Of a stretch of 64,000 nt of DNA, positions 4,102-21,544 are shown in pieces. The position numbers were made by a program, and so were the translations under genes. Position 1 is the stretch's first letter, and every line of letters starts with the position of its first letter. The notes below the pieces were generated by a model that was not told the DNA's origin, searched no databases, and saw only the letters and a program-made list of their open reading frames with translations. The stretch is taken from NCBI GenBank assembly GCA_027484685.1, contig JAIXSO010000005.1, positions 1-64,000 of the forward strand, written 5' to 3'. The DNA comes from Bacteroidota bacterium. Lineage in GTDB: Bacteria; Bacteroidota; Bacteroidia; UKL13-3.

Positions 4102-4500
4102 ATGAAATTACGCAAAAAAAAGCAGTTTGAGGCTGAAGTTGCTACTTCTTCGCTCAACGATATTATGTTTTTCCTCTTGCTTTTCTTTTTAATTATTTCA
4201 ACCATTGCTAACCCCAATGTTATAAAAGTATTATTGCCAAAGGCAGAAAAAGGTCAAACTTTAGCTAAAAAACAATTTTCGTTAACTGTAAACGAACATA
4301 AAGAGTATTATTTTGATAGAGAATTAGTTGATTATGCTACTTTAGAGCAAACACTTAAAGCTAAAACTGCTGGAGTAGATGATCCAACTATTGTATTGCG
4401 TATGGATGCTACTTTAACAGTTCAAGAGTTGGTTGATATTTTATCAATAGGAACGCGATTAAAGATAAGAATAGTAATGGCAACTCAGGTTGGTAAATAA
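4102..4500 (+). CDS. exbD: ExbD/TolR family biopolymer transport protein
   Basis: This is the partner of the ExbB-like gene just upstream, in one operon. It has a short basic N-terminus (MKLRKKKQ), the family signature LNDIMFFLLLFFLIISTIANP at about residues 18-38 containing the membrane helix and the conserved proton-pathway Asp (ND, residue 20), and a periplasmic domain of about 95 residues. Length (132 residues) is normal. Gene order exbB-exbD is standard. Confidence 0.93.
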   Translation: MKLRKKKQFEAEVATSSLNDIMFFLLLFFLIISTIANPNVIKVLLPKAEKGQTLAKKQFSLTVNEHKEYYFDRELVDYATLEQTLKAKTAGVDDPTIVLRMDATLTVQELVDILSIGTRLKIRIVMATQVGK

Positions 4501-4516
4501 TATAACTTATAAAATA

Positions 4517-4552
4517 AAAGAGCTCGATTTGATATTCAAACCGAGCTTTTTT
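4517..4552. terminator. Bidirectional terminator between exbD and ACP-like gene
   Basis: AGCTCG and CGAGCT arms, extended by TTTGA/TCAAA past one mismatch, are flanked by an A-run on the left and a T-run on the right. It can end exbD on the plus strand and the convergent 4571-4801 gene on the minus strand. Confidence 0.7.
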
Positions 4553-4570: not shown

Positions 4571-4801
4571 TTAGTTATGCACTAAACTTGCTACGTAATC
4601 GCCTACTTCGCCAATAGTTTGAAAACTTAAGAACTGTTCAACAGTAACATTGGTTCCAAATGAAGAGTTAATGGCATCAACTGCCACTTGGGCATTAGTT
4701 GCATCGTAACTTAATTCTGGTCCAAGAGTTATATTATCGCTTGGTGCAGCAGATTTGTCCATGATAATGTTTTTTACTTTTCCTTTTGTAGTTTCTGACA
4801 T
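4571..4801 (-). CDS. Acyl-carrier-protein-like small protein lacking the carrier serine
   Basis: This 76-residue acidic protein aligns by eye without gaps to the helix II-IV half of bacterial acyl carrier protein. VKNII matches the ACP start VKKII, the central part ends in SSFG where ACP has EEFG/EEFD, and TIGEVGDYVASL matches the last helix. Where ACP has the DSL motif whose Ser carries phosphopantetheine, this protein has D-A-T (in LSYDATNAQV). It therefore should not be modifiable, unless another residue is used. No fatty-acid or polyketide genes adjoin it; the nearest neighbour, 82 bases upstream on the same strand, is an acyl-CoA ligase. Function is unknown. ATG at 4801 follows an AT-rich leader. 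Confidence 0.65.
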   Translation of the reverse strand: MSETTKGKVKNIIMDKSAAPSDNITLGPELSYDATNAQVAVDAINSSFGTNVTVEQFLSFQTIGEVGDYVASLVHN

Positions 4802-4883
4802 AATTTTTTTGTTTTAAGTGAATAATTGAAATGTAAATGTATTTAATTTCAATTATTTAACAAATTATTTGTTTTATAATTAG

Positions 4884-6782
4884 TTACTGAAATGCATTTC
4901 CTAATTTTCTACTACTAAGTTTTAGTTCTATTTCGGTTAACGATTCAGGATCTTCAATGGTTGAAGGAATATTATAAGCCAATCCATCAGCAATATGCCT
5001 TATGGTTTTGCGTAAAATTTTCCCCGATCGAGTTTTTGGTAAACGCTTTACTACTACAGCATTTTTAAATACAGCCACAGCACCTATTTTTTCTCTAATT
5101 AATGCAACCAATTCATTTTCCAATATTTCTTCAATACATTCAATACCATCTTTTATTACTACCAAAGCAATAGGTCTTTGTCCTCTTAGTTCATCGGCAA
5201 TTCCAAGCACAGCACATTCAGCTACACTTGGGTGTGCAGCAATTAATTCTTCCATTTCTCCCGTGCTCAATCTGTGGCCGGCTACATTTATAACATCGTC
5301 AATTCTACCCATAATATAAAAATAGCCATCTTCATCTTTGTAACCACCATCTCCAGTTAAATAATAGCCTAAAAAATGCTCTAAATAACCTTTTCTAAAA
5401 CGTTCATCGTTGTTCCATAAAGTAGGTAAACATCCAGGAGGTAGTGGTAATTGAATGGTTACAAATCCTTCTTGGTTTGGTCCTAGTTTTTCGCCTTCTT
5501 CCGACAGTATTTGAATATCGTATCCGCATACTGGTAATCCTGCTGAACCTGATTTGGCTTCAAACTGTTCTACTCCCATCATAATTCCAATCATTGGCCA
5601 ACCACTTTCGGTTTGCCACCAATGGTCAATTACTGGTTTTTGCAATAAGTTTTTTATCCAACTAAAAGTTGCAGGGTCTAATCTTTCGCCTGCTAAAAAC
5701 AAGGTTCTTAACGATGAGAGATTGTATTGTTTTAAAATAGTTCCTTCATCATCTTCCTTTTTTATGGCTCTAATGGCTGTTGGTGCGGTAAACATTAAGT
5801 TAACTTTATGTTGTTCAATTACGCGCCAAAAGCCGCCACAATCAGGTGTTTTTACTGGTTTTCCTTCGTATAAAACAGTGGCGCAACCATTTAATAATGG
5901 TCCGTAAACTATATAACTATGTCCAACTACCCAACCCACATCGCTAGCAGCCCAAAATACATCACCTTCTTTAGCATTGTAAAAATGGGTCATACTAAAT
6001 TTTAGGGCAGTGGCATAACCTCCTGTATCGCGCACTATACCTTTGGGTGTTCCTGTTGTACCCGAAGTGTAAAGAATATAAAGCGGATGTGTAGCCTCAA
6101 CTGCAATATAGTTTACAGGTTCCGATTGGTTTAAAAGTGTTTCAAAATCAATTTCGTTGGCATTGTTTATGGTGTCATTACCATTTGTTCTTCTGTATAA
6201 AATGGTATAGTTAGGTTTGTGGTTTGCTTCATCAATGGCCTTATCCACTAAATGTTTGTAATGAATCACTTTATCTACTTCTAAACCATAAGAAGCAGTT
6301 ATAATAGCTTTAGGTTTTGCATCATCTATACGCATGGCCAATTCATGTGGAGCAAATCCTCCAAACACTACAGAATGTATAGCACCTATTCTAGCGCAAG
6401 CCAACATAGCTATAACTGCCTGTGGAATCATTGGCATATAAATTACCACTGTATCGCCTTTGGTTATGCCTAAATTTGTTAAGCCTCCGGCAAATTTTGA
6501 AACTAAATGAGTAAGTTCATTATAGGTAAAATGTTGAACAATTAAAGTAACGGGAGAATCATATATTAATGCTACTTCATTGCCTCTGCCCGCTGCTATA
6601 TGCGCATCTAAACAAAGTGCCGACATGTTTAATTCACCATCGGTAAACCATTGGTAAAAGCCTTTTTCGTTAACTGATAAAGTGTTAGTTGGATGTTTTA
6701 TCCAATTTATTGCTGTGGCTTGTTTAGCCCAAAATGCTTCCTTATTGGTTATGCTATCTTGGTATAGTTCTGAGTATTTCAT
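4884..6782 (-). CDS. prpE: Acyl-CoA synthetase, propionate-CoA ligase type
   Basis: This AMP-forming enzyme of the acetyl-CoA synthetase family activates a short carboxylic acid with ATP and CoA. The phosphate-binding loop YTSGTTGTPKG is at about residues 236-246; the following IVRDTGGYATALKFSM block is typical of propionyl-CoA synthetases rather than Acs. The adenine-binding WWQTESGWP motif and the C-terminal TRSGKILRK with the catalytic/acetylatable Lys (about residue 590) are present. Length of 632 is normal for PrpE. It lies 72 bases downstream of a receiver-kinase pair on the same strand, so it may be co-transcribed with, or controlled by, that pair. Substrate (propionate, acetate or another C2-C4 acid) cannot be fixed from sequence. 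Confidence 0.88.
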   Translation of the reverse strand: MKYSELYQDSITNKEAFWAKQATAINWIKHPTNTLSVNEKGFYQWFTDGELNMSALCLDAHIAAGRGNEVALIYDSPVTLIVQHFTYNELTHLVSKFAGGLTNLGITKGDTVVIYMPMIPQAVIAMLACARIGAIHSVVFGGFAPHELAMRIDDAKPKAIITASYGLEVDKVIHYKHLVDKAIDEANHKPNYTILYRRTNGNDTINNANEIDFETLLNQSEPVNYIAVEATHPLYILYTSGTTGTPKGIVRDTGGYATALKFSMTHFYNAKEGDVFWAASDVGWVVGHSYIVYGPLLNGCATVLYEGKPVKTPDCGGFWRVIEQHKVNLMFTAPTAIRAIKKEDDEGTILKQYNLSSLRTLFLAGERLDPATFSWIKNLLQKPVIDHWWQTESGWPMIGIMMGVEQFEAKSGSAGLPVCGYDIQILSEEGEKLGPNQEGFVTIQLPLPPGCLPTLWNNDERFRKGYLEHFLGYYLTGDGGYKDEDGYFYIMGRIDDVINVAGHRLSTGEMEELIAAHPSVAECAVLGIADELRGQRPIALVVIKDGIECIEEILENELVALIREKIGAVAVFKNAVVVKRLPKTRSGKILRKTIRHIADGLAYNIPSTIEDPESLTEIELKLSSRKLGNAFQ

Positions 6783-6854: not shown

Positions 6855-7226
6855 TTAATCCAAAAGTGCTGATATTTTATTTACAATATCTTTGTTAGAG
6901 AACGGTTTGGTAATGTATAACTCTGCTCCTAAATCGTAGCCTTTTTGTATATCGGCTTCTTTCGATTTTGCGCTTATAAATACCACTTTACAAAGCCTAT
7001 GTTTTTCGCTGCTTTTTATATGCTTGCAAATGGCATAACCATCTACATCGGGCATCATAATATCAAGTAAAACTACATCAGGAACATTTTGGTCTAGTAG
7101 TTCTAAAGTTTCAGTTCCATTACGCGCAATCATCACATCAAACCCATTTTTGCGCATTAAAAATTCTAACGACATTAATATATATGGGTCGTCATCCACT
7201 ACCAATATTTTATAAGCTTGATTCAT
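6855..7226 (-). CDS. Free-standing response-regulator receiver (CheY-like)
   Basis: This protein is a single receiver domain of about 123 residues with no DNA-binding or enzymatic output. The acidic pocket DDD (about 11-13), the phospho-acceptor Asp55 in VVLLDIMMPDVDG, the Ser of FISAKS and the Lys of ITKPFS are all present. I chose ATG at 7226; an in-frame TTG lies at 7235. The start lies inside the last codons of the upstream kinase gene (17-base overlap), which implies translational coupling and that the kinase is its partner. Output must go through another protein. Confidence 0.9.
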   Translation of the reverse strand: MNQAYKILVVDDDPYILMSLEFLMRKNGFDVMIARNGTETLELLDQNVPDVVLLDIMMPDVDGYAICKHIKSSEKHRLCKVVFISAKSKEADIQKGYDLGAELYITKPFSNKDIVNKISALLD

Positions 7227-9948
7227 TGTGTGCAATTAAATTTTTACTGGGCTCAAAGTTAGGAATTGTAAATGTAAAGCGTGAACCTTTTTCTATTTCA
7301 CTTTCAACCCAAATTTTCCCATTATGCATTTCAATTATTCGTTTACAAATAGCTAATCCTAAGCCTGTTCCTTCAGGTTTTTTAATGGTTTGGTTCCTTG
7401 CTTGAAAAAATTTATCAAAAATGAGTTCATGTAATTCGGCAGCAATTCCTTTTCCGTTATCCATAATACATATTTGAACATCGTTTTGGAGCTCAGTAAT
7501 TATAATTTGAATTTGGCCATTTTCAGGAGTAAATTTAAGCGCATTACTTAGTAAATTTACCACTACTTGTTGTATCAAATCTTTATCTGCATGAACCAAT
7601 AACATGCTATTGGGCTTTTGAAACGATAATTCAATTTTTTTATCGTTAGCTACTAAGCTATATGAGGTATAAAGTTCTTTAACTAATGTTATAATATCGA
7701 ATGATGTTAAGTTAAGTTTTTGTTTACCACTTTCGTATTTCTCTAAGTTAAGAACCTTGGTAATTAAATGACTTAATCTTTCAGCCTCTTTAACTACTGC
7801 GGCTAAAAACTTTTCTCTTTCTTCGGTTTCTAAATCTGGATTATCGTGAACAATTTCGGTTAATGAACGTATGGAAGTTAACGGTGTTCTAAGCTCATGA
7901 GTAACAGTATATAAAAACTCATCTTTTAATTCATCCATGGTTTTTAACTGTAAGTTAGCCTCCTTCAACTGCTCGGTAGCTTTGGTTAACTCAATTGATT
8001 TTTTGCGCAACTCTTTGTTAAGTTCTATCATTTGTTGCGACTCGTGCAAAATTTTAAATACTTCGTTTAAGCTGAGTTCTTCTTCTTTAGTTACAGAGCT
8101 TACCATAATACGGGCCGATGCAGAGCCTATAACACCTGCTAAAATTTTCTCAGAGAAACTTACTATTCGTGGATCAGCTTTGGCATTATGGTCAATTGAT
8201 ATTTTATGCCTATGGGCATAATTTTGAATGAGGTTTGTAGCCCTTTCTTTTCCTAAAAAATTTTCTAACAACGAGTATAAATCGGGCATGTAAGCTGTTC
8301 CACGCCAAATGCTGTTGCTTTCTGGTGTATTGTATCTGTCAATATCTACAAATATTTCGGCTTGATATACTTCTTGTGGACTTTGTTTGCTATAAACTGA
8401 AAAAACAAAGTAGGCACAGCAATTAAAAAACATACTCCAAAACAAAGCATGTGTTATAGAATCAAATCCTTCTAAACCAAAAAGTGCATTGGGTTTTAGC
8501 CATGCTATATTAAATGGCCCATTCTGAATAATGCTATCATTAATAATGTGAGCATGCGCAATGGATGGAATGATTAATGTATAAAACCAAATGATAAAAC
8601 CAATGATGATACTTGCCAATGCGCCATTTTTGCTAGCCGTTTTCCAATAAATGCCACCAATGATTGCAGGTGCAAATTGTGCAACTCCAGCAAATGATAT
8701 TAAACCAATAGATACCAATGAAAAATACTGAGCCACGTATTGATCGTATAAATAAGCAAATAATAAAATAAGTATAATACTTAATCGCCTAACAGTTAAA
8801 ATGGTTTTTCTAATTGATTTATCAATGGAGTTTTTAAAGTTATCTTGCCTAAATAAAACTGGCATAACCAAGTTATTACTCACCATGGTACTTAATGCAA
8901 TGGTCTCCACTATAATCATGCTGGCAGCAGCCGAAAATCCGCCAATAAATACCAACATGCTTAGTATAGGTTTGTTAAAATGTAAGGGCAGTGCAAGTAC
9001 ATAAGTATCTGCATCTACACTCATATTATAAAAAATTAATTTACCACCAAATGCAATTGGGATTACAAAAATATTGATTACAAATAAGTAAAGCGGAAAC
9101 AACCATACTGCTTTTTTTAAGTGTTCTTCACTTACATTTTCAATTACCCCAACTTGAAACTGACGCGGTAAAAATAACACGGCCATCATAGATAGTAAAA
9201 TACCCGAAAACCAACCAGCATGCGCATTTTCACCTTCTAATGTAAAAAGTTTTTTAAATTCTTCTACTTGCGATGCTTTGTAAAATATATCATCAAAACC
9301 ATCGAAAATGCCATAAGTAACAAATATACCTGCAACTAAAAATGCCACTAATTTTATAACCGATTCAAAAGCTACAGCAGCTACCAAGCCTTCGTGTTTT
9401 TCGGTAGCATCAACACTACGCGTTCCAAATATGATAATAAATATGGCTAAAAATACTGAAAAATAAAGTGTATTATCTGAAATAAAGTTGTGTCTAGCAG
9501 CAGTATTATTGGTTAAAATATCAAAGCTTATAGCAATGGCTTTTAGCTGCAAAGCAATATAAGGAAGCACACCTATGATACAAAAAATGCTTACAACTGC
9601 TGCTAAACTTGCATTTTTTCCATATCGGGTAGAAACAAAATCAGCTATACTATTTATGCGCTGCGCTTTGGTAATGCGGATAATTTTTCGCAGCACAGGA
9701 AAAAACAAAGCGGCCATAATAGTTGGCCCAATATATATGGTTAAAAAACTAATTCCATTAGTAGTAGCTCGGCCAACACTTCCGTAGTAAGTCCAAGCGG
9801 TGCAATACACGCACATTGATAGTGCATATACATAAGCATTATTAATGATACTCTTTCCTTTTTTTAAGCGATTTTCAGCAAAATAGGCTACCCCAAATAA
9901 TAATAATAGGTATAATAAAGAGCATATAATAATTAATGCATTACTCAT
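7210..9948 (-). CDS. Sodium/solute symporter-like sensor histidine kinase
   Basis: This 912-residue hybrid has an N-terminal half (about 1-510) that is a polytopic Na+/solute symporter (SSS, PutP-like) module, with TAWTYYGSVG and an N-terminal plan typical of the family. A coiled-coil linker at about 630-670 leads to a HisKA domain with the phospho-acceptor His684 in TVTHELRTPL. An HATPase domain follows, with N box LLSNALKF, G1 DNGKGIA and G2 GTGLGLAI. Related proteins are CbrA and CrbS, which sense or transport nutrients; CrbS controls acetyl-CoA synthetase. Here the kinase is followed by a receiver and a short-chain acyl-CoA ligase, which supports control of acid use. The ligand is not known from sequence. 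Confidence 0.92.
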   Translation of the reverse strand: MSNALIIICSLLYLLLLFGVAYFAENRLKKGKSIINNAYVYALSMCVYCTAWTYYGSVGRATTNGISFLTIYIGPTIMAALFFPVLRKIIRITKAQRINSIADFVSTRYGKNASLAAVVSIFCIIGVLPYIALQLKAIAISFDILTNNTAARHNFISDNTLYFSVFLAIFIIIFGTRSVDATEKHEGLVAAVAFESVIKLVAFLVAGIFVTYGIFDGFDDIFYKASQVEEFKKLFTLEGENAHAGWFSGILLSMMAVLFLPRQFQVGVIENVSEEHLKKAVWLFPLYLFVINIFVIPIAFGGKLIFYNMSVDADTYVLALPLHFNKPILSMLVFIGGFSAAASMIIVETIALSTMVSNNLVMPVLFRQDNFKNSIDKSIRKTILTVRRLSIILILLFAYLYDQYVAQYFSLVSIGLISFAGVAQFAPAIIGGIYWKTASKNGALASIIIGFIIWFYTLIIPSIAHAHIINDSIIQNGPFNIAWLKPNALFGLEGFDSITHALFWSMFFNCCAYFVFSVYSKQSPQEVYQAEIFVDIDRYNTPESNSIWRGTAYMPDLYSLLENFLGKERATNLIQNYAHRHKISIDHNAKADPRIVSFSEKILAGVIGSASARIMVSSVTKEEELSLNEVFKILHESQQMIELNKELRKKSIELTKATEQLKEANLQLKTMDELKDEFLYTVTHELRTPLTSIRSLTEIVHDNPDLETEEREKFLAAVVKEAERLSHLITKVLNLEKYESGKQKLNLTSFDIITLVKELYTSYSLVANDKKIELSFQKPNSMLLVHADKDLIQQVVVNLLSNALKFTPENGQIQIIITELQNDVQICIMDNGKGIAAELHELIFDKFFQARNQTIKKPEGTGLGLAICKRIIEMHNGKIWVESEIEKGSRFTFTIPNFEPSKNLIAHNESSL

Positions 9949-16145: not shown

Positions 16146-17651
16146 ATGACAACATTAGCACAAAAACCAACTTTTAAAGCCAAGTATGATAATTTCATAG
16201 GTGGTAATTTTGTAGCTCCAGTTAGTGGAGTTTATTTCGATAATGCAAGTCCAGTTGATGGAAAAGTATTTACTCAAGCTGCTCGTTCTGGAAAAGAAGA
16301 TGTAGAGTTAGCTTTAGATGCTGCGCATTTAGCTTTTGCTACTTGGAGCAAAACATCGGCTGCTTACCGTTCAGGTATTTTAAATAAAATAGCCGATGTA
16401 ATGGAAGCTAATTTACAATATTTAGCAGCCATTGAAACTTATGATAATGGTAAACCAATTAGAGAATCTATTAATGTAGATTTACCTTTATGTATTGACC
16501 ATTTTCGCTACTTTGCTGGTGTAATTCGTGCAGAAGAAGGTTCCATTTCGGAGCATGATGAAACCACAGTTAGTATTTGTTTACACGAGCCTTTAGGTGT
16601 TGTTGGTCAAATTATTCCTTGGAATTTTCCATTATTAATGGCTACTTGGAAAATAGCTCCTGCATTAGCAGCAGGTTGCACAGTGGTAGTTAAACCAGCC
16701 GAACAAACACCAACTTCTATTATGTGTTTAATGGAATTATTAAAAGATGTAGTTCCTGCAGGTGTAATTAATATTGTTACAGGTTTTGGTCCTGAAGCAG
16801 GTAAGCCTTTGGCTCAATCTCCTAGAGTTTCAAAAGTTTCGTTTACAGGTGAAACTACGACAGGTAGATTAATTATGCAATATGCATCAGAAAATTTAGT
16901 TCCTGTTACTATGGAGTTAGGTGGTAAATCTCCAAATATTTTCTTCCCATCAGTTGCTGATCATGATGATGATTTTTTTGATAAAGCAGTTGAAGGCGCA
17001 GTATTATTTGCAGTAAATCAAGGTGAAGTTTGTACTTGTCCTTCTCGTATTTTGGTACACGAAAGCATTTACGATAAATTTATGAGTAAAGTAATTGAGC
17101 GTACCAAAGCTATTAAAATGGGTAATCCATTAGATAGCAATACCATGATGGGAGCTCAAGCTTCAAACGATCAGTATGAAAAAATTCAATCCTACTTAAA
17201 GTTAGGAAAAGAAGAAGGTGCTGAAGTGCTTTGCGGTGGTGATGTTCATAAATTAGATGGCGAATTAGCAGGTGGATATTATATTCAGCCAACTTTATTT
17301 AAAGGCCACAATAAAATGCGCATTTTCCAAGAAGAAATTTTTGGCCCAGTAGTTTGTGTTACCACATTTAAAACTACAGAAGAAGCCATTGCCATTGCAA
17401 ACGATACTTTGTATGGTTTAGGTGCAGGTGTTTGGACAAGAGATGCACATGAATTATACCAAGTACCACGTGCTATTCAAGCTGGTAGAGTTTGGGTAAA
17501 TTGTTACCATGCTTATCCGGCACACGCGCCATTTGGTGGTTATAAAAAATCAGGATTTGGTAGAGAAAATCACTTAATGATGTTAGGTCATTACCGTCAA
17601 ACTAAAAACATGTTGATTTCTTACAGCAAACAAAAATTGGGTTTCTTTTAG
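16146..17651 (+). CDS. NAD(P)-dependent aldehyde dehydrogenase (AldB/ExaC type)
   Basis: It oxidises an aldehyde to the acid. The 501 residues show the full ALDH pattern: [12 protein letters not shown] with the coenzyme-binding segment, the Rossmann-type [11 protein letters not shown], the general base Glu in MELGGKSPN, and the catalytic Cys296 in [11 protein letters not shown]. The GEVCTCPSR wording and the [25 protein letters not shown] block fit the acetaldehyde/chloroacetaldehyde branch (AldB, ExaC). The DUF779 gene 84 bases downstream often partners this branch. Acetyl-CoA synthetase lies 2 kb on, so acetaldehyde to acetate to acetyl-CoA is a reasonable inferred route. Confidence 0.93.
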
Positions 17652-19612: not shown

Positions 19613-21544
19613 ATGTCATACCCACATCAAATAAAAAGCTTAGAACAATATAACGAAGCCTATAAAAAAAGTATTGAAAACCCAGAAGAATTTTGGGGTG
19701 AAGTAGCAGAAAATTTTACTTGGAAAAAGAAATGGGATAAAGTTTCGAATTGGAACTTTAAAGAACCAAATATAAAATGGTTTGAAGGTGGTAAATTAAA
19801 TATTACCGAAAACTGTATTGATAGGCATTTAGCTGAACGAGGTGAGCAACCCGCTATTATTTGGGAGCCTAATAACCCTGAAGAAAAAACCCGCATTGTA
19901 ACTTATAACCGTTTACACAAACGTGTATGCCAAGTGGCTCAAATGTTAACCAATTTAGGTGTGAAAAAAGGTGACCGTGTTTGTATTTATATGGGCATGA
20001 TTCCTGAATTGACTTATGCAGTTTTAGGTTGCGCTCGTATTGGTGCTATTCATTCAGTAATTTTTGGAGGTTTTTCGGCTCAAAGTATTGCCGATAGATT
20101 AGAAGATGCAAGTGCTGAATACATTATTACTTGCGATGGTGCTTACCGTGGCAATAAAGATATTCCATTAAAAAGTGTAATTGACGATGCTTTAATTGGC
20201 AATAAAACAGTTAAAAAAGTTATTGTTTATACACGTACTCGCAATCCGGTAAGTATGATAAAAAACCGTGATTTGTGGTGGGAAGATGAAATGGAACAAG
20301 CCGAAGAGCAAGTAGAGAAAAATGGTAAAGTTAGTTTTCCTGCTGTTGAAATGGATTCGGAAGACCCATTGTTTATTTTATACACTTCAGGTTCAACAGG
20401 CAAACCAAAAGGAGTAGTTCATTCTACTGCGGGTTATATGGTTTGGACAAACTATACTTTTGTAAATGTATTTCAATACCAACCTGGACAAGTTCATTTT
20501 TGTACGGCCGATATTGGTTGGATTACTGGTCATAGTTATATAGTTTATGGTCCATTAAGTGCTGGAGGAACTTCATTGATGTTTGAAGGAATTCCTACTT
20601 GGCCCGATGCTGGCAGATTTTGGGAAATAGTAGAAAAATACAAAGTAGATGTTTTATATACAGCTCCTACAGCTATTAGAAGTTTAATGGCTTATGGTTT
20701 AGATTTTGTAAATAACAAAGATTTAAGTTCATTAAAAGTATTAGGTACCGTTGGTGAGCCAATTAACGAAGAGGCTTGGCAATGGTATTTTAAAAATATT
20801 GGTAAAGAAAAATGTCCAATTGTAGATACTTGGTGGCAAACAGAAACTGGCGGAATTATGATTTCTAATTTAGCTGGTGTTACACCACATAAACCTGCAC
20901 ATGCCACCTTGCCATTACCGGGAGTTAATCCTTGTTTGGTTGATGAAAATGGAGTAGAAATTTTAGGTAATTCTGTAAGTGGAAACTTATGTATTAAGCA
21001 GCCTTGGCCGGGTATTATTCGCACTACTTATAACGACCATGAACGTTGCCGTACTACTTATTTTTCAACTTATGAAAATATGTATTTTACAGGCGATGGT
21101 TGCTTGCGCGATGAAGAAGGAAACTATAGAATTACAGGCAGAGTTGATGATGTGTTAAACGTAAGCGGACACCGAATTGGAACTGCTGAAGTGGAAAATG
21201 CCATTAACATGCATAGCGGGGTGGTTGAAAGTGCTGTAGTAGGTTATCCTCACGATATAAAAGGGCAAGGAATTTATGCTTACGTTATATACGATAACAA
21301 GCATACAGCCGATGAAAACCTCACCAAGCAAGATATTATTCAAACTGTATCGCGTATAATTGGTGCCATTGCCAAGCCCGATAAAATTCAGTTTGTTAGT
21401 GGATTGCCCAAAACCAGAAGTGGTAAAATTATGCGTAGAATATTACGCAAAATTGCTGAAGGCGAAACCAGTAATTTAGGTGATACAACCACTTTGTTAG
21501 ACCCAAATGTGGTGGATGAAATTAAGAATGGTGCTTTACTTTAG
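19613..21544 (+). CDS. acs: Acetyl-CoA synthetase
   Basis: This AMP-forming acetate-CoA ligase makes acetyl-CoA from acetate, ATP and CoA. The 643 residues match the normal length. Visible motifs are the P-loop YTSGSTGKPKG (about 257-267), the acetate-pocket region with DIGWITGHSY, WWQTETGG, and the C-terminal PKTRSGKIMRR whose Lys (about 605) is catalytic and is the usual acetylation site. FFE-type N-terminus with NPEEFWGEVAENFTWKKKWD is standard. It is distinct from the second ligase at 4884, so this region holds two short-chain activating enzymes. Confidence 0.96.
   Translation: MSYPHQIKSLEQYNEAYKKSIENPEEFWGEVAENFTWKKKWDKVSNWNFKEPNIKWFEGGKLNITENCIDRHLAERGEQPAIIWEPNNPEEKTRIVTYNRLHKRVCQVAQMLTNLGVKKGDRVCIYMGMIPELTYAVLGCARIGAIHSVIFGGFSAQSIADRLEDASAEYIITCDGAYRGNKDIPLKSVIDDALIGNKTVKKVIVYTRTRNPVSMIKNRDLWWEDEMEQAEEQVEKNGKVSFPAVEMDSEDPLFILYTSGSTGKPKGVVHSTAGYMVWTNYTFVNVFQYQPGQVHFCTADIGWITGHSYIVYGPLSAGGTSLMFEGIPTWPDAGRFWEIVEKYKVDVLYTAPTAIRSLMAYGLDFVNNKDLSSLKVLGTVGEPINEEAWQWYFKNIGKEKCPIVDTWWQTETGGIMISNLAGVTPHKPAHATLPLPGVNPCLVDENGVEILGNSVSGNLCIKQPWPGIIRTTYNDHERCRTTYFSTYENMYFTGDGCLRDEEGNYRITGRVDDVLNVSGHRIGTAEVENAINMHSGVVESAVVGYPHDIKGQGIYAYVIYDNKHTADENLTKQDIIQTVSRIIGAIAKPDKIQFVSGLPKTRSGKIMRRILRKIAEGETSNLGDTTTLLDPNVVDEIKNGALL

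Follow-up and report, generated by a model that had tools for sequence, protein, structure and literature searches.

The window, a 64,000-nucleotide stretch of Bacteroidota DNA, contains a short gene whose product we label dACP, for a serine-less paralogue of AcpP, the acyl carrier protein (ACP) of type II fatty-acid synthesis. The gene and its surroundings are as follows.

4102..4500, plus strand: ExbD-like gene, convergent neighbour of dACP, conserved in 4/4 carriers of genus g1
4516..4552: terminator-like hairpin 3' of dACP, common to the convergent exbD (-16.0 kcal/mol)
4571..4801, minus strand: dACP coding sequence, stop included (76 aa, ATG start, TAA stop)
4700..4702, minus strand: codon GCA for Ala34 in the phosphopantetheine-serine column (D33-A34-T35 versus D-S-L)
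4754..4786, minus strand: AcpP-like N-terminal segment (helix I), codons 6-16, KGKVKNIIMDK, the best-conserved part in common with the genome's AcpP
4821..4857: perfect 12-bp inverted repeat overlapping the promoter-like box of dACP; inspection by eye showed no intact copy upstream of the gene in G003 or G006
4834..4864, minus strand: promoter-like TTTG-N19-TACATTTA, between the ligase stop and the dACP start
4884..6782, minus strand: propionyl/acetyl-CoA ligase-like gene upstream of dACP, a neighbour and not a conserved partner

Relationship of dACP to acyl carrier proteins

The phosphopantetheine serine is the defining feature of an ACP, and helix II is regarded as the surface that partner proteins recognize. 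The initial annotation had described an ACP-like reading frame with Ala in place of this serine; it gave no strand, and its description is borne out by a gene on the minus strand. The motif is Y-D-A-T-N, and both MAFFT and a profile alignment to the genome's own AcpP place Ala34 in the column of the D-S-L serine. The D-S-L-type motif expected of a bona fide ACP is thus absent from the window protein, and the residue is not Ser in 11 of the 14 family members described below. An excerpt of work on Enterococcus faecalis names 4'-phosphopantetheine on the protein as the criterion for a bona fide ACP (PMC6509188).

The relatedness of dACP to ACPs exceeds chance. The dACP family and the genome's own AcpP align over 73 columns in hhalign (98.5%, E 2.6e-15), a profile of 12 family members matches AcpPs in the PDB at E 4.6e-9, and all 12 members match PF00550 at E <= 1. 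Taken alone, the window protein scores 16.6 bits against PF00550, under Pfam's curated cut-off of 20.8, and among eight members whose bit scores were read just one, L009 (23.3), exceeds it. Loop I is 4 to 5 residues shorter than that of AcpP in both MAFFT and hhalign, so that, of the gapless alignment to ACP helices first reported, the relatedness holds and the absence of gaps does not. Matches of 6 of the 12 members to DUF899 (PF05988; best E 0.0027, below its cut-off) were taken as chance.

The initial annotation had also proposed comparing a predicted structure with ACP. The AlphaFold2 model of the window protein (pLDDT 78) is ACP-like, with four helices at residues 2-16, 34-48, 54-59, and 63-74. 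All of the best 50 Foldseek rows have probability 1.00, with query-based TM of 0.67-0.83 and none reaching E 0.001; nearly all are ACPs or complexes that contain one. The best 50 VIA-align entries, whose titles point to ACP and PCP chains, have Z of 10.0-11.4; the program warns that helical bundles can give unspecific matches when Z is below about 13, and for this reason we rest homology on the sequence profiles. The model of a second, more typical member has helices II-IV only: helix I is not formed, and N-terminal pLDDT is 54 and 61. This leaves the state of the key N-terminal segment unsure. Either the model was built on too shallow an alignment or the segment is held only loosely; in the second case, we speculate, it would stand exposed instead of packing against the other helices, as would suit a role in recognition.

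Distribution, selection, and genomic setting

The 64 genomes of the window's order served for both the order search and the family search. Matches at E <= 0.001 occur in 61 of them, and 14 carriers, in three genera (g1, g3, and g7), each have two: a family member and an AcpP-level match. The carriers' AcpPs were read for 10 of the 14, and all are DSL. The 14 dACPs form one clade in a maximum-likelihood tree, apart from 21 AcpPs (100/100) and with long branches inside. Around the serine column they read DAT (2), DAS (2), NQP (2), DNN, TNT, SIG, TVA, TTP, and QSG (3), the motif serine being absent from 11/14 and present as Q-S-G in L010, L011, and L012. A survey of homologues had been suggested as a way to expose a recent Ser-to-Ala mutation; no homologue has D-S-L, and we reject a recent mutation. 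These data show that the dACP gene is a duplicate of acpP that has lost the phosphopantetheine serine and, as detailed below, most of the acidic recognition helix.

The family evolves under purifying selection. dN/dS is 0.12-0.42 in the nine pairs for which dS is finite (it is saturated in a tenth), and the reading frame is open in all 14 assemblies with dACP. Six positions are invariant in the 12-member alignment (I12, D15, K16, A43, N45, and F48), and a family-specific motif, A-x-N-x-E-F-G-T, lies at the end of helix II. Between G000 and G003, dACP is 76% identical, compared with 88.7% for exbD, 95.7% for exbB, and 96.8% for the ligase; this fast change relative to its neighbours indicates that constraint outside the N terminus is moderate.

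At class level (395 genomes, with a threshold of 1e-9 at which distant relatives elsewhere could be missed), family-level matches were found in G000, G024, and G040 only. The other 11 matching genomes gave 1.2e-11 to 8.3e-10, and their AcpPs listed (identical proteins skipped) are D-S-L. A scan of genome contigs returned nine loci, apparently from genomes already counted. No relative was found in viral contigs (156 pattern matches, none confirmed), phage records, or PHROGs, and a plasmid match at E 0.5 was taken as chance; we rejected a mobile or viral origin on these results. Among listings of open-licence papers, we found none that describes a family of free-standing ACPs without the serine. 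Carriers have larger genomes than non-carriers (median 3.6 versus 2.65 Mb, Mann-Whitney P = 0.003, uncorrected for kinship) in a comparison of 12 carriers with 12 non-carriers in g1, g3, and g7, all with completeness of 90% or more and contamination of 5% or less. Together, these results show that dACP, found here in one Bacteroidota order only, is a separate accessory locus kept by selection in part of that order.

The setting of the gene differs by genus. dACP lies beside exbD-exbB-secDF in all four g1 carriers, with one gene between in G006. All nine g3 carriers have bshA and/or purK nearby, where bshA is our presumptive name for a gene that Pfam places among glycosyltransferases; the single g7 carrier has neither. 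Ten g3 genomes lack dACP: in eight, bshA and purK are directly adjacent with no trace of the gene, in one bshA is near a contig end, and in the other purK was not found within the flank. No trace of dACP was seen around exbD in the available stretches of the six g1 non-carriers, some of which are cut by contig ends.

For the most part dACP appears to be its own transcription unit, judging from sequence signals. The box at 4834..4864, which we take to be a promoter of the Bacteroidota-type consensus, has the form TTTG-N19-TAnnTTTA upstream of dACP in the window, G003, and G006. Across the family, TAnnTTTG is found within 60 nt upstream in 9 of the 14 members (shuffle mean 0.35), TAnnTTTA in three, and neither in two. 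By eye, terminator-like hairpins follow dACP in several members. The exception is G009, which has no promoter box and in which a 237-aa open reading frame on the same strand ends 12 nt upstream.

dACP also lies apart from fatty-acid synthesis genes. The genome's true acpP is on contig C25 beside its sole ketosynthase match, and dACP is on C57, without such genes. As the original annotation remarked, no gene for fatty-acid or polyketide synthesis is apparent around the ligase. Ketosynthase matches number one in 61 of the 64 genomes and none in three, and with at most one per genome there is no extra fatty-acid or polyketide system. The phosphopantetheinyl transferase family PF01648 has one match in 59 genomes, two in two, and none in three. 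No additional ketosynthase or phosphopantetheinyl transferase accompanies dACP in the 64 genomes, and on these counts we rejected an association of dACP with fatty-acid or polyketide synthesis machinery of its own.

Several other genes were recorded in passing. A 912-aa protein (7210-9948, minus strand) has a C-terminal histidine kinase (HisKA, HATPase_c) and a long N-terminal part that looks like a multi-span transporter, with no Pfam transporter family at E 1e-5. A lone receiver-domain response regulator (6855-7235, minus strand) overlaps the end of this gene just upstream of the ligase; the pair is arranged much like the CrbS/R acetate switch. The window has a second acetyl-CoA synthetase-like gene (19613-21544, plus strand) near an aldehyde dehydrogenase-like gene (16146-17651), both of them named by eye. 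On contig C1 of G000 (L036/L037, 38922-39620, minus strand), a partial reading gave a long open frame in which several ACP-like segments surround a hydrophobic stretch.

Inverted conservation of helix I and helix II

The two helices differ in how far they resemble the AcpP of the window genome. In helix I, the 14 dACPs share 5 to 13 of 14 residues with it, versus 0 to 2 of 14 for six ordinary ACP paralogues taken from the window genome and other genomes. In helix II the order is reversed, with 2 to 4 of 16 residues shared by the dACPs versus 4 to 7 of 16 by the ordinary paralogues. The extreme case is G053, whose dACP is identical to its own AcpP over the first 15 residues and shares 10 of 56 in the remainder; at the other end, identity in the N-terminal segment is only 5 to 7 of 14 in L003, L007, L009, L058, and L059. 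The AcpP segment itself varies within the genus: L097, the AcpP of G005, a genome of the same genus without dACP, carries VEEKVKNIIVDK where the window genome has the KGKVKTIIMDK type.

The acidic helix II of ACPs is the surface read by fatty-acid enzymes and the phosphopantetheinyl transferase. Its net charge in dACPs is -2 to -4 versus -5, and the net charge of the whole protein is -4 to -7 versus -11 to -13 in AcpPs.

Gene conversion of the 5' end, or constraint at the nucleotide level, was considered as a source of the AcpP-like N terminus and rejected. At shared residues, 60 of 87 codons match the genome's own AcpP and 471 of 713 match the AcpPs of other genomes (10 of the 14 carriers covered). 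Matches to the own genome are not in excess, a result that speaks for selection at the protein level and not for gene conversion.

Proposed role and relation to known systems

Because the serine has been lost and selection has nevertheless kept the gene in several freshwater relatives, dACP probably has a different job from AcpP, most likely that of binding another protein. We favour, with a probability of about 0.5, an AcpP-derived, non-acylated protein-protein adaptor or regulator of ACP fold, kept as a separate accessory locus. Such a protein would not be an acyl carrier and would act through protein binding, for which it would rely chiefly on the N-terminal segment retained from AcpP, [KR]G[KR]VKxIIMDK, and additionally on the family-specific A-x-N-x-E-F-G-T motif. 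It would most likely engage a protein that AcpP also touches through its N-terminal segment, with no acyl carriage or hand-over possible. A structural or regulatory non-acylated ACP mimic was among the roles first suggested for the gene, and this suggestion gains support from the absence of the motif serine in 11/14 members, the ACP-like fold, and purifying selection. A narrower version, held tentatively and at odds somewhat short of even, is that this is a natural free-standing family of non-carrier ACPs that has kept AcpP's helix I, not helix II, for its function. It would be an AcpP mimic, acting where a partner reads helix I and there either competing with AcpP or reporting on it.

It is unlikely that dACP is a decoy of fatty-acid synthesis that titrates AcpP's enzymes or the phosphopantetheinyl transferase while itself unloadable, a role that had also been raised at the outset. 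The ACP fold and AcpP descent fit this role, as does the fact that an inactive ACP can still occupy partners, but helix II, through which those enzymes would bind, is poorly AcpP-like (2-4/16), and its net charge is down by roughly half. The neutralised helix weakens the decoy proposal.

Similarly doubtful is a structural role within a larger protein assembly or membrane complex, like that of the ACPs of respiratory complex I or on MmpL5. ACP chains from complex I, NFS1-ISD11, and MmpL5 entries are among the best 50 Foldseek rows, and dACP adjoins exbB-exbD-secDF in g1. That neighbourhood is limited to g1, however, and the MmpL5-AcpM contacts named in an excerpt of the structural report are mostly acidic (PMC11633376), whereas dACP is less acidic than AcpP.

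We consider it quite improbable that dACP is still a carrier, modified at another residue or, in some species, at the serine of Q-S-G. Ser does occupy the aligned column in L010, L011, and L012; L009, although its own residue there is Ile, scores above the PF00550 cut-off; and most genomes have one phosphopantetheinyl transferase match. Against this, none of the family-wide invariant residues is a serine, and Q-S-G has also lost the flanking D and L.

The initial annotation raised dACP as a partner of the acyl-CoA ligase, and in this role it could be a carrier subunit docking as ACP does on acyl-ACP synthetases. The ligase is indeed upstream on the same strand, at 4884-6782, and in 2 of the 14 carriers, the window genome and G003, the two genes lie side by side in the same orientation. 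An orthologue at E <= 1e-150 was found in 5 of 62 genomes (G000, G003, G006, G035, and the non-carrier G023), that is, in 4 of 13 carriers searched versus 1 of 49 non-carriers (Fisher P = 0.006), an association confounded by three of the four ligase-bearing carriers belonging to one genus. Nine of the 13 carriers have no orthologue at this threshold, the two genes are on different contigs in G035 and about 11.5 kb apart in G006, a separate promoter box lies between them, and dACP has no serine to load. Linkage to the ligase is thus not conserved, and we rejected the partnership on synteny and phyletic pattern, which make it very improbable.

A decaying or non-expressed duplicate without function would suit the fast divergence, patchy presence, and larger carrier genomes, but is equally hard to credit given open frames in 14/14, dN/dS well under 1, invariant residues, and promoter boxes; we rejected a pseudogene.

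If the helix-I mimic reading is true, dACP exposes a non-classical recognition surface of AcpP. A selected natural paralogue that lacks the serine and the recognition helix and keeps the N-terminal helix amounts to a ready-made separation-of-function AcpP. Its partner would reveal the role of AcpP's first helix and would tell whether ACPs serve in cells purely as ligands of other proteins.

The closest known system is AcpP itself (PF00550; NF002150, PRK00982), which dACP resembles in descent, length, and predicted fold and, in the best cases, nearly matches in the N-terminal segment; dACP differs in the missing serine (11/14), the shorter loop I, the neutralised helix II, and a locus away from fabF. 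AcpB of E. faecalis, according to the excerpt of PMC6509188, is an atypical, non-essential auxiliary ACP needed for regulation of fatty-acid synthesis. Like dACP, it is a second, strongly diverged ACP with an altered helix II beside a standard one, but it keeps the serine, is phosphopantetheinylated and acylated, and is apparently cotranscribed with plsX (PMC6509188). Ser-to-Ala inactivated ACP domains of PUFA synthases, as an excerpt of PMC5067506 describes them, likewise have a serine-less ACP fold, which can nonetheless exert an effect through its structure; they are engineered and sit inside a megasynthase, whereas dACP is a natural free-standing family. In the excerpt of PMC11633376, AcpM is, unlike dACP, a normal carrier with mostly acidic named contacts, and its complex with MmpL5 provides a precedent for an ACP bound to a protein outside its own biosynthetic pathway.
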